Shown here piece by piece: positions 8,114 to 27,934 of a stretch of 64,000 bases of DNA. Each line of letters starts with the position of its first letter. Within the stretch, counting starts at the first letter, position 1. The stretch comes from Phycicoccus sp. Soil802 (GTDB lineage: Bacteria > Actinomycetota > Actinomycetes > Actinomycetales > Dermatophilaceae): assembly GCF_001429605.1 (NCBI RefSeq), contig NZ_LMSS01000006.1, positions 1 to 64,000 of the forward strand. The letters are read 5' to 3'. The notes under the pieces were generated by a model, which was not told where the DNA came from, did no database searches, and saw nothing but the letters and a program-made list of their open reading frames with translations. The translations under genes and the position numbers were made by a program.

Positions 8114-9568
8114 TCAGACGACGAGCGGGCGGTCGTTCGGGTTGATCGGGCGGGGCAGCGCCGTGGCGCCGGTGAGGAAGCGGTCGACACCGGCCGCCGC
8201 AGAGCGGCCCTCGGCGATGGCCCACACGATGAGCGACTGCCCACGACCGGCGTCACCGGCCACGAACACGCCCGGGACCGACGACATGTAGTCCTGGTCG
8301 CGCTTGACGTTGGAACGCTCGTCGAGCTCGACCTCGAGCTGCTCGACGACTCCCGGGCCCTGCGGCCCGAGGAAGCCCATCGCGAGCAGGATCAGCTGGG
8401 CCGGCAGCACGCGCTCGGTGCCCTCGACCTCCTCGAAGCCCTGGTCGCCCATGCGGACCTCGACGACCCGGATGCCGGAGACCTTCCCGTCCTCGCCCAG
8501 GATCTCCTTGGTGGACGTGGCGTAGACGCGCTCCCCGCCCTCCTCGTGGGCCGACGCGACGCGGAAGAGCATCGGGTAGGTGGGCCACGGCTGACCCGCG
8601 ACCCGCTCCTCGCCCGGCTGCGGCATGATCTCGAGGCTGGTGACCGAGCGGGCGCCCTGGCGGTGCGAGGTGCCGATGCAGTCGGCGCCGGTGTCGCCAC
8701 CGCCGATGACGATGACGTCCTTGCCCTCGGCGGTGACCTGTCCCTCGACGGTCTCGCCGAGTGCGACGCGGTTGGCCGGCGGGAGGAAGTCCATCGCCTG
8801 CATGACGCCGTCGAGCTCGCGCCCGGGCACCGGCAGGTCACGCGGGACGGTGGCCCCGATGGCCAGGACGACAGCGTCGTAGCGGTCGCGCAGCTGCTTG
8901 CCGGTCACGTCGCCACCGACGTCGACCCCGCTGCGGAACCGGGTGCCTTCGGCCTCCATCTGGGCGATGCGGCGGTCGAGGACCGACTTCTCCATCTTGA
9001 ACTCGGGGATGCCGTAGCGCAGCAGGCCACCGGGCTTGTCGGCGCGCTCGTAGACCGCGACGGTGTGACCGGCGCGGGTGAGCTGCTGGGCCGCGGCCAG
9101 TCCCGCCGGACCGGAGCCGACGACGGCGACGGTCTTGCCGGAGAGCCGCTCGGGCGCCTGCGGCTGGACGTAGCCGGCGTCGAAGGCACGGTCGATCGTC
9201 GTGACCTCGATCTGCTTGATGGTCACCGCGGGCTGGTTGATCCCGAGGACGCAGGCCGTCTCACACGGTGCAGGGCAGAGCCGACCGGTGAACTCCGGGA
9301 AGTTGTTCGTGGCGTGCAGCCGCTCGATGGCCTCGCGCCAGTCGCCCTTCCAGGCCAGGTCGTTCCACTCGGGGATGAGGTTGCCGAGGGGACAACCGCT
9401 GTGGCAGAACGGGATCCCGCAGTCCATGCAGCGCCCCGCCTGCCGCTGCAGCTGGCCGAGCTCCTGCTCCTCGTAGACCTCCTTCCAGTCCCTGATCCGG
9501 ACCGGCACGGGGCGACGGGCGGGCAGCTCGCGCTCCCGCGTCTTCAGAAAACCTTGGGGGTCAGCCAC
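8114..9568 (-). CDS. gltD: Glutamate synthase (NADPH) small subunit
   Basis: The protein has 484 residues. The N-terminal cysteine-rich region ([20 protein letters not shown] and CPAPCETAC) carries the iron-sulfur clusters. It is followed by an FAD-binding Rossmann motif ([15 protein letters not shown], about residue 150), an NADPH-binding motif ([15 protein letters not shown], about residue 290) and a C-terminal GDAGRGQSL. It delivers electrons from NADPH to the large subunit for glutamate formation from glutamine and 2-oxoglutarate. The GTG start overlaps the gltB end by eight bases, with GGAGG upstream, so the two subunits are made in step. Confidence 0.97.
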
Positions 9569-12500
9569 GGGAGGCCTCCATGATCCGCTCCCAGACCTCG
9601 GAGCCGTTGACGTCTAGTCCCTCCGCCTCGGCGGCGGCGCGCACGTCGAGGACGCGCTGGTAGTCACGCGGGAGGACCAGGGTGAACCGCGACCTCGCGG
9701 ACTCCCACTCCTCGAGCAGCCGGGCCGCGATGGGCGACTCGGTCTCCGCCACGTGTTGGACGAGCAGCTCGCGCACGACCGTCTCGTCGTCGGGGCGGAG
9801 CCCGGAGACGTCGACGAGCTCGGTGTTGACCCGGCTCTCGTCGAGGTCGAGGACGTAGGCCACTCCCCCGGACATGCCGGCCGCGAAGTTGCGCCCGGTC
9901 GGTCCGAGCACGAGGACGGTGCCGCCGGTCATGTACTCGCAGCCGTGGTCGCCGACACCCTCGACGACGGCGGTCGCGCCGGAGTTGCGGACGCAGAAGC
10001 GCTCGCCGACGAGTCCGCGCAGGAAGATCTGGCCCGTGGTGGCGCCGTAGCCGATGACGTTGCCGGCAATGACGTTCGCCTCGGCCTGCAACGGCGCGGC
10101 GCGGTCGGGACGGACCACGACGCGACCACCGGACAGGCCCTTGCCCACGTAGTCGTTCGCGTCACCCACCAGGCGCAGCGTGATGCCGCGTGGCAGGAAC
10201 GCGCCGAGCGACTGGCCGGCCGAACCGGTCAGGGTCAGGTCGATCGTGTTGTCGGGCAGCCCGTCGGGGTGCGCCTTGGTGACCTCGTGGCCGAGCAGCG
10301 TGCCGATCGTGCGGTTGACGTTGCGGACCGCGACCTCGCCGACCACCGGGGTGCCGTCGTTGATGGCCTCCCGCGCGATGGTGATGAGGTGGTGGTCGAG
10401 GGCCTTCTCCAGCCCGTGGTCCTGGGTCGTCGTGTTGCGACGGGCCGACCCGTCCGGGCTCTCCACGTCGGTGAAGATCGGTGCCAGGTCGAGCCCAGCG
10501 GCCTTCCAGTGGTTGACGGCGCGGGTGGCGTCGATCGCCGACACCTGGCCGATGGCCTCCTCGATGCTGCGGAAGCCCAGCACTGCCAGGTGCTCGCGGA
10601 CCTCCTCGGCGACGTACTCGAAGAACGTCTCGACGAACTCGGGCTTGCCGGAGAAGCGCGCGCGCAGCTCGGGGTTCTGGGTGGCGATGCCCACCGGACA
10701 GGTGTCGAGGTGGCAGACCCGCATCATGATGCAGCCGCTGACGACCAGCGGAGCCGTGGCGAACCCGAACTCCTCGGCACCGAGCAGCGCGGCGATGACG
10801 ACGTCGCGGCCGGTCTTGAGCTGACCGTCGCACTGCACGACGATCCGGTCGCGCAACCCGTTGAGCACCAAGGTCTGCTGGGTCTCGGCGAGGCCGATCT
10901 CCCACGGCCCACCGGCGTGCTTGAGCGAGGTGAGCGGGGACGCGCCGGTGCCACCGTCGTGACCGGAGATGAGGACCACGTCGGAGTGCGCCTTGGAGAC
11001 ACCCGCCGCGACCGTGCCGACACCGATCTCGGAGACCAGCTTCACGTGGATCCGGGCCTCGGGGTTGGCGTTCTTGAGGTCGTGGATCAGCTGGGCGAGG
11101 TCCTCGATCGAGTAGATGTCGTGGTGCGGCGGCGGGCTGATCAGGCCGACACCCGGCGTGGAGTGCCGGGTCGTGGCGATCCACGGGTAGACCTTGTGGC
11201 CGGGCAGCTGTCCGCCCTCACCGGGCTTGGCACCCTGCGCCATCTTGATCTGGATGTCGCCCGCCTTCGTCAGGTAGAGCGAGGTCACGCCGAACCGGCC
11301 CGACGCGACCTGCTTGATCGTCGAGCGCCGCTCGGGGTCCATCAGGCGGTCGATGTCCTCGCCACCCTCACCGGTGTTGGAGCGACCGCCGATGCGGTTC
11401 ATCGCGATGGCCAGCGTCTCGTGGGCTTCCTGGCTGATCGAGCCGTAGGACATGGCCCCGGTGTTGAACCGCTTGACGATCTCGCTGATCGGCTCGACCT
11501 CGTCGATCGGGACCGCGGGGCGCGGCGACGGGCCGCCGAGCGTGAACAGGCCACGCAGCGTCATCAGCCGCTCGGACTGCTCGTCGATCCGCGAGGTGTA
11601 CTGCTTGAAGATGTCGTAGCGCCGCTGCCGCGTCGAGTGCTGCAGGCGGAAGACGGTGTCGGGGTCGAACAGGTGCGGTTCACCTTCGCGCCGCCACTGG
11701 TACTCACCGCCCACACCGAGCTTGCGGTGCGGGAGCCGCACCCCGTCCGGAGGGTATGCCGCGGCGTGCCGGGCCGCGGTCTCCGCGGCGAGCACGTCGA
11801 GGCCAACGCCACCGAGCTGGCTCACCGTGCCGGTGAAGTAGCGGTCGACGAGCTCCTGCGAGAGCCCTAGTGCCTCGAAGACCTGGGCGCCGCGGTAGGA
11901 CGCGACGGTGGAGATGCCCATCTTCGACATCACCTTGAGGACGCCCTTGCCGAGCGCCTTGATCAGGTTCGCGACGGCTTGGTCGGCGGTGACGCCCTCG
12001 ATGGCGCCGGAGCGCACCAGGTCCTCCACCGACTCCATCGCGAGGTAGGGGTTGACCGCGGCCGCGCCGTAGCCGATGAGCAGGGCGACGTGGTGGACCT
12101 CGCGCACGTCACCGGCCTCGACGACGAGCCCCACGAGGGTGCGGGTCTTCTCACGGATCAGGTGGTGGTGCACCGCCGAGGTGAGGAGGAGCGACGGGAT
12201 CGGCGCGTAGTCGCGACCGGAGTCACGGTCGGAGAGCACGACGAAGCGGGCACCCTCGGCGATCGCCGCCGACACCTCGGCGAAGATCTCCTCGAGCCGC
12301 GCGGTCATCGCAGCGGCCCCACCGGTGACGTCGTAGAGCCCGCGCACGACGTGCGTCGCGTAGCCCGGCAGGTCGCCGTCGGCGTTGACGTGGACGATCT
12401 TGGCGAGGTGGTCGTTGTCGATCACCGGGAACGGCAGGACGACCTGGCGCGCGTGCGCCGGTCCCGCCGCGAGGGCGTTGCCCTCCGGACCGATGACGGT

Positions 12501-26612: not shown

Positions 26613-27047
26613 TCAGGCGCTGACGCCCTCCCCCAGCCAGACCGGCCGTGTCGCGTCACCCGCCTCGAACGCGACCCAGACGTCGGCGCCGATGGCGGGG
26701 ACGACATTGGTACCTGTGGCGGGAAGGCAGGCCGCAGCCCACACCGACTCGTCCCCGCTCACGTCGGGCACGCGGACGAAGAGCCGACTGCGCCCGAGTG
26801 GGTCCGCGTTGTCGACCACGGTGGCCCGGTGCACCCCATACCTCCGCCGCTCGCTGCCCAGGTACGCCTCGGACCCGATCTGCTCGGAGTAGCTGCTGAG
26901 CAGGTCGCCGACGTACGCGAGCAGCTCCAGCAGCGCTACGCCCGGATCGTGCTCGTTGGCGTCGGTCCAGTCCCGCAGCTCGATCCTGGCCCGTTGGACC
27001 AGCTCCTCGACTCGTGGCCGACCACGCCGACCGTCGTCCGGGCTCAT
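26613..27047 (-). CDS. Small protein joining baseplate-J-like and gpV/VgrG OB-fold-like parts
   Basis: This 144-residue protein has residues about 8-70 (RIELRDWTDANEHDPGVALL, LLAYVGDLLSSYSEQIG, EAYL) that read like the N-terminal part of phage/contractile-injection baseplate wedge proteins (baseplate J; family pattern WTDHNPSDPG-x-TLLELFAWL). Residues about 84-142 (GRSRLFVRVPD, VWAAACLPATG, IGADVWVAFEAGD, RPVWLG) read like the OB-fold of gpV/gp5/VgrG spike-hub proteins. The two parts normally belong to different, much longer proteins. No other tail or sheath gene is in the window. It overlaps the upstream surface-protein gene by four bases, so the two are co-translated. The homology is by pattern recognition only. 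Confidence 0.6.
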   Translation of the reverse strand: MSPDDGRRGRPRVEELVQRARIELRDWTDANEHDPGVALLELLAYVGDLLSSYSEQIGSEAYLGSERRRYGVHRATVVDNADPLGRSRLFVRVPDVSGDESVWAAACLPATGTNVVPAIGADVWVAFEAGDATRPVWLGEGVSA

Positions 27048-27934
27048 CGGCTCGCCTCCGTCGGCCGACGCCTGCCGAGCAGCTCGCAGGCCAAGCCGGT
27101 GCCAAGCAGGAGCAGCGCGAGGCCGACGAGCCCAGAAGGCGCTGACCCGGTGTTGGCCAGCTCCGGGCCCTGGGTCGGACTCAACGCCGGACGAGGTGCG
27201 GCCGCCGCCGTGATGGTGAACTCGGTCTCGCCGTAGCCGTCGCGCACGGGTTGTTGCGCTTCGGGATCACCACACACGAGCACCACGAGGGCTGGGCCGA
27301 CCTCCGGGTCGGTGAAGCCGCGTGCGTGATCTGCGCTGATCGGCAGCCTGACGGTCACGTCCCCGTTCGGACGCGGTCTCACGGTCGCCTGCCTGAAGAT
27401 GAACCCGTCACCGGGGAAGGACGCCTCGAACTGGACCTGCAGGTAGACCACCGACATCTCAGTCCCCGGATCGCAGGTCGCCGACACGGTGACGACTCCT
27501 CCGAGGGGCACGGAGCGCGGCGACACCGAGACCTGCACCTCGTAGTCAGCAGTGTCGGGGCCGAAGAGAAGGACCTCCACCTCGGCAGTACCGAGAGGCG
27601 CCTGGTCGCTGTAGGCGAAGCAGGCCAGCGTCACCCTGCCCGTGCCCGTCAGCGCCTTCGAGATGTCGAGCACCGTGGCGAAGCCGAGGTCGTCAGCCAC
27701 ATCGGTTGCGGTCTGCGCGACCTCCACGTCGTCGCTGGTCACGGCCACGGTGGCGGTCCGGCTTCCCTCGGGACAGGTGCCCTCGACCGGGAACGGGTCC
27801 TGCGTGGAGAACTTGCCGGGTTGCGGCACCGTGATGGTGGCATCCGCGGCCCGAGCCGGCAGGGCTGGCACCAGCACCAGCCCCGCGGAGACGACGGCAA
27901 CGACGGTGGTTCTTCGAAGTCGGTGAGCGAACAC
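27044..27934 (-). CDS. Secreted surface protein with LAXTG sortase signal
   Basis: The 296-residue protein starts at GTG 27934 (GAGGGTG upstream). A signal peptide (about 1-29, VVAVVSAGLVLVPALPARA) is followed by two beta-rich, Ig-like repeats without known catalytic motifs and a proline-rich linker. The C-terminus has LANTG at residues 259-263, a hydrophobic helix (LVGLALLLLGTGLACELL) and a basic tail (GRRRP). LAXTG is the motif expected for class E sortases of high-GC Gram-positives. It is probably fixed to the cell wall. It is coupled to the small baseplate-like gene downstream. Confidence 0.82.
   Translation of the reverse strand: MFAHRLRRTTVVAVVSAGLVLVPALPARAADATITVPQPGKFSTQDPFPVEGTCPEGSRTATVAVTSDDVEVAQTATDVADDLGFATVLDISKALTGTGRVTLACFAYSDQAPLGTAEVEVLLFGPDTADYEVQVSVSPRSVPLGGVVTVSATCDPGTEMSVVYLQVQFEASFPGDGFIFRQATVRPRPNGDVTVRLPISADHARGFTDPEVGPALVVLVCGDPEAQQPVRDGYGETEFTITAAAAPRPALSPTQGPELANTGSAPSGLVGLALLLLGTGLACELLGRRRPTEASR

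Follow-up and report, generated by a model that had tools for sequence, protein, structure and literature searches.

How does a protein of 144 residues come to combine pieces of two different baseplate components in a genome that encodes no contractile machine, and what might it do there? The question is raised by a small gene on contig NZ_LMSS01000006.1 of Phycicoccus sp. Soil802, within the stretch of 64,000 nucleotides that was analysed here (hereafter the window). An original prediction, made from the letters of this stretch, had singled the gene out; here we describe its anatomy, its relatives and surroundings, the selection acting on it, and the roles that it may have.

Anatomy of the fusion gene

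The 144-residue protein is a fusion of the start of a Cis11/TIGR02243 wedge protein and the OB domain of a Cis8/gpV spike (Table 1). The original prediction had seen wedge-like and OB-fold-like patterns joined in this gene, and profile searches split the protein in just this way. TIGR02243 (baseplate assembly, J-like) matched from residue 13 with an E-value of 1e-13 and 50.8 bits; this is a partial match at the profile start, covering positions 11–86 of 659 and falling below the full-length cut-off of 155.8 bits. Pfam PF04717 (gpV/VgrG OB) matched residues 74–139 with an E-value of 2.5e-15 (57 bits against a cut-off of 23.8). The WTD..DPG..LLEL helical pair of Cis11-type wedge N-termini was found in the first module, and a profile built from the N-terminal segments of five members of the family described below retrieved the baseplate protein 9gtp_1K of Streptomyces coelicolor (J-like domain) with an E-value of 9.4e-5; from its description, we read 9gtp_1K as Cis11. 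The two parts were therefore named rightly; two further baseplate-derived segments occur in the family but not in the window copy.

Table 1. Positions of the fusion gene, its modules and its upstream neighbour in the window, and of the leader ORFs of relatives.
Feature	Coordinates	Strand	Remarks
Small fusion gene, 144 aa	26613..27047	(-)	ATG start; GGAGG at 27055-27059
Module 1: wedge (Cis11/TIGR02243) N-terminal helical pair, residues 13-63	26859..27011	(-)	
Linker, residues 64-68	26844..26858	(-)	From alignment; model confidence low
Module 2: gpV/Cis8-type OB domain, residues 68-144	26616..26846	(-)	PF04717; 9gtr_q fold
LAXTG-type secreted wall-protein gene, 296 aa	27044..27934	(-)	Upstream neighbour of fusion gene
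LANTG sorting motif, residues 259-263	27146..27160	(-)	Direct sequence reading
ATGA overlap of LAXTG gene stop and fusion gene start	27044..27047	(-)	4 nt
7-codon leader ORFs of relatives	L038 9353-9376; L037 9297-9320; L040 9392-9415; L041 9746-9769		Derived coordinates

The predicted structure (39 sequences; mean pLDDT 84) likewise agreed with the proposed division, with helices at residues 13–23 and 35–62 joined by a loose linker to an OB barrel, and with pLDDT values of 78–91 across residues 11–60 of the first module. The barrel folds like the S. coelicolor CIS spike 9gtr_q (Z 11.3, rmsd 2.2 over 78 residues, 27% identity) and matched further spikes as well. No beta-helix follows it: the reading frame stops at residue 144, five residues past the PF04717 match, at the point where the beta-helix of a spike would start, and the protein is thus not a gpV/Cis8 spike protein in the full sense. 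A GGAGG sequence 7 nt before the ATG provides a good ribosome-binding site, and no signal peptide was evident in the 144 residues.

In the contractile injection system (CIS) of S. coelicolor, Cis11 and Cis12 are the wedges and Cis8 is the spike (PMC12237407), and in AlgoCIS domain I of Alg11 and parts of Alg12 contribute to the core bundle (PMC8894135). The window protein resembles the former system in its OB fold (9gtr_q) and its WTD..DPG helical N-terminus (9gtp_1K), but there the two belong to separate large proteins of a complete machine, whereas here they are fused segments of an orphan. CIS loci of related genomes (e.g. locus L047 of genome G040) contain gpV and wedge genes about 42–47% identical to the window segments; unlike the chimera, these are separate full-length genes, arranged in the order gpV, PAAR, gp25, wedge, wedge, tail, DUF6519.

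Absence of a contractile machine in the genus carriers

The source genome was found to contain no sheath gene and no PF04717 or TIGR02243 match other than the fusion gene itself, and hence, by these genes, no contractile injection system. The absence of tail genes, which had been proposed for the surroundings of the gene, thus extends to the whole genome for the sheath and for other gpV-type and wedge genes, and because wedge and gpV-type OB are fused without tail genes, the suggestion of a remnant or reused part was right. Among the 11 genomes of the genus, a sheath (PF04984) occurred only in G147, whose CIS locus is complete and which carries no chimera, and PF04717 was restricted to five chimera carriers and G147; this complementarity between sheath and chimera could be chance. 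In the anatomy and orphan status of the gene, taken by themselves, our confidence is high.

A family of baseplate chimeras

A survey of 188 genomes of the taxonomic family identified six intact copies, five of them in the 11 genus genomes (the window, G141, G142, G143 and G145) and one in G129, of another genus, so that the gene is neither absent from nor broken in all relatives. The copy in G184 is frame-broken, its OB domain running across two frames (L027 1268–1696); this assembly is in many contigs and a sequencing error is possible. The chimera was absent from the remaining six genus genomes, G147 included, no further recognisable chimera was found among 396 genomes of the order, and a single scan of a genome contig collection returned three partial relatives.

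The members share their start (MSxDRG-like in most) and an end just past the OB domain; what distinguishes them is which middle segments, or in G129 the first segment, have been lost in frame. The longest, in G142, has 241 residues and holds four segments in a single frame: the wedge N-terminal helices, a wedge 'FGDG' segment, a DUF6519-like N-terminal motif and the spike OB. The window copy, which keeps two of these, is the shortest, and its linker lies at the site where relatives have the 'FGDG' segment and DUF6519-like motif (up to ~97 extra residues). In G142 the 'FGDG'-like segment comprises two TIGR02243 stretches, mostly with 35–45% identity to wedge-type proteins. The DUF6519-like motif of the relatives has 65% identity over 20 residues to the DUF6519-type gene of G040, and its link in G143 has an E-value of 0.0027, under the Pfam cut-off; this putative assignment is the weakest of the segment identities. 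All five large length differences among the six intact copies preserve the frame. The OB domain is the only module present in every member, and five of the six also have the wedge helices.

In a midpoint-rooted tree of the OB domain (79 columns), the six members grouped together with support of 89/78, below the star level of the tool, and among their end branches that of the window copy was the shortest. A spike OB loop, which runs to 17 residues from W to VP in most of the CIS-type hub OBs compared, is altered in all six, mostly to 13 residues. Judged from their sequences, the chimeras are one family. It is an orphan family made up of the four CIS baseplate segments named above (the helices from Cis11/12-type wedges, the OB from Cis8/gpV), and our best guess is that it has been domesticated.

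Solo OB proteins of Microbacteriaceae (L002, L059 and L062) are also orphans of gpV type, with 52% identity in L002 and with an altered hub loop; unlike the chimera, they have no wedge segment and carry another C-terminal tail. Genes of this type (L002 8001–8342, L059 and L062) have in common the tail GDAWDxGHAAG...NPYR or NPFR, and that of L059 has a stop within its wider frame. Around the gpV-like genes L046 9389–10066, L044 8959–9432 and L043 near 9700–10086, no other tail genes were recognised in the stretch concerned, which for L043 reaches a contig end about 3.6 kb downstream of the gene.

Upstream genes and the origin of the chimera

The overlap of the fusion gene with the gene of a secreted, sortase-type wall protein was confirmed: both reading frames are real and share the ATGA. 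The wall protein has a signal-peptide-like N-terminus (judged by eye) and a C-terminal LANTG motif followed by a hydrophobic stretch and RRR, and two sortase genes lie elsewhere in the source genome; with these features it is a LAXTG/LPXTG sortase substrate, with a partial NCBIfam match below cut-off. The proposal of a functional pair did not hold up in relatives. Homologues of the wall protein occur in G142, G144, G146, G147 and G148, none adjoining a chimera, the pairing is found in this genome only, and a conserved pairing was thus ruled out.

In relatives, what precedes the chimera varies: a leader ORF of 7 codons, a fragment of CIS13, or other genes. In G142, G145, G141 and G129, an ATG 20 nt upstream opens the leader ORF, whose TGA overlaps the ATG of the chimera (ATGA). 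Because the LAXTG frame ends in this same overlap, the pairing in the window looks like a local replacement of the leader-ORF position. A -10-like hexamer (GATACT, GACAAT, GACAAT and CATAAT) lies 6–7 nt before the leader ATG, a spacing that would fit a leaderless leader ORF, and DNA similarity among these members starts about 36–60 nt upstream of the chimera. A tandem repeat of the hexamer and leader start was observed in G141 (L040 about 9357–9400). In G143, a truncated, orphan CIS13-like gene (L039 10164–10688; NF053767, E 1e-18) is located directly upstream of the chimera; no CIS13-like gene was found in the other genus genomes. In the window, G142 and G143, the chimera has an LLM-type oxidoreductase gene in its vicinity; G144 and G149 possess this gene and no chimera.

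Plain deletion within a CIS locus like that of G147 or G040 would not yield the chimera, because in full CIS loci the spike gene precedes the wedge genes, while the order in the chimera is wedge, DUF6519, spike. A phage or plasmid origin was also rejected, as records in phage and plasmid collections each cover a single segment at most; in a scan of viral contigs, two hits were obtained, in which the segments lay apart from each other, and the best phage match was 39% over 68 residues, with no close phage baseplate found. A search for inverted repeats as mobile-element ends gave weak pairs only, none convincing.

Selection on the family

Pairwise dN/dS across the whole gene ranged from 0.33 to 0.52, with every bootstrap interval below 1 (upper limits ≤0.80); for the separate modules, some intervals reached 1. 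The neighbouring oxidoreductase gene gave 0.18–0.37, and the values of the chimera were higher than those of most pairs of a neighbouring metabolic gene. On the window branch, 4 unique changes were synonymous and 11 were not, so that no constraint is visible there, in a count biased towards otherwise-conserved sites. At the level of codon comparison, the whole-gene ratios establish protein-level constraint on the family. A family kept under such selection without a machine would probably represent an injection-machine part given a new use, and that use is perhaps the jamming of such machines.

Possible roles of the chimera

We tentatively propose that the protein is a domesticated cytoplasmic baseplate mimic that stalls contractile baseplates. 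It would be made in the cytoplasm, probably by stop-start coupling to the preceding gene or leader ORF, and it keeps segments that build wedge and spike into a baseplate, without the beta-helix of the spike or the body of the wedge. In a forming contractile baseplate, whether of an infecting myophage or of an acquired injection system, it could occupy a docking site and, as a decoy subunit, might stall assembly. Two things favour this reading: the segments derive from proteins that belong to one assembly, and small proteins that block the assembly of tails exist, namely Tab, which acts on the tape measure protein (PMC10884400), Tai (PMC11364771), and Rta, whose escape mutants point to the tape measure protein (PMC12987554). 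The proposed analogy to these stoppers is one of function, and since it is the tape measure protein, not the baseplate, with which Tab and Rta are linked, the decoy reading is an analogy only. PADLOC gave no match for the window protein at E≤1 (2023 library, which possibly does not include Tab, Tai and Rta).

Several observations count against a decoy. No genus carrier has a CIS as a possible target and no close phage baseplate came to light, the window branch shows no constraint, the gene is missing in 5 of the 11 genus genomes besides G147 and broken in G184, and module loss fits poorly because only the OB domain is universal (G129 is without module 1); with the hub loop lost, docking in the hub may no longer be possible. 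A new binding role is about as likely as the decoy, and so is slow decay. Recruitment to a non-tail role, with the OB domain binding some cellular ligand and the other segments being dispensable extensions, is an equally guarded possibility that would account for the OB as sole invariant module, for a changed spike-hub loop both in all members and in the solo Microbacteriaceae genes, which the tree places on the side of the chimeras, and for other orphan gpV genes without CIS neighbours within the taxonomic family; yet it has no conserved neighbour or ligand to offer, the residues that never vary are typical of the OB family in general, and the wedge helices persist in all members but one. Nearly as possible is slow decay, in which the gene would be a functionless relic of an ancient CIS locus, worn down stepwise by in-frame deletions. 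The variable module loss, the patchy presence within the genus, the broken G184 copy, the truncated CIS13 gene beside the G143 copy, the dN/dS above most pairs of the neighbouring metabolic gene and the unconstrained window branch are all consistent with such decay, but whole-gene dN/dS is below 1 in every pair and six frames are intact despite five large deletions, for which we estimate a neutral chance of about (1/3)^5. Moreover, the spike-first order of full loci makes simple deletion insufficient, and four relatives retain a leader ORF with the same ATGA overlap.

Two further explanations tie the protein to a partner. That the small protein and the LAXTG protein work as one unit, for example to receive or anchor a baseplate-like part at the cell surface, is very improbable: the ATGA overlap in the window speaks for it, but the pairing is peculiar to this genome, homologues of the LAXTG gene are unlinked to the small gene, and no signal peptide is evident in the small protein. 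Hardly any weight can be given to a working subunit of a contractile system encoded elsewhere in the genome, since the wedge and spike folds are retained but the genome has no sheath, no other wedge or spike gene and no beta-helix spike. Returning to the decoy, its extension to a conserved class of orphan baseplate chimeras acting against contractile tails in machine-less bacteria is unlikely, more so than the decoy itself.

Implications for the reuse of baseplate parts

Domestication of phage tails is known for entire machines. To join as many as four pieces of separate baseplate genes in one chimera, and to keep it under selection outside any machine, is a different mode of reuse, and we found no earlier description of such a chimera in the open-access literature, most subscription papers being outside our scope. 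If the chimera blocks contractile tails, it would represent a mimic-type defence that could be searched for elsewhere; if it does not, baseplate domains would still have been recruited to a cellular role.
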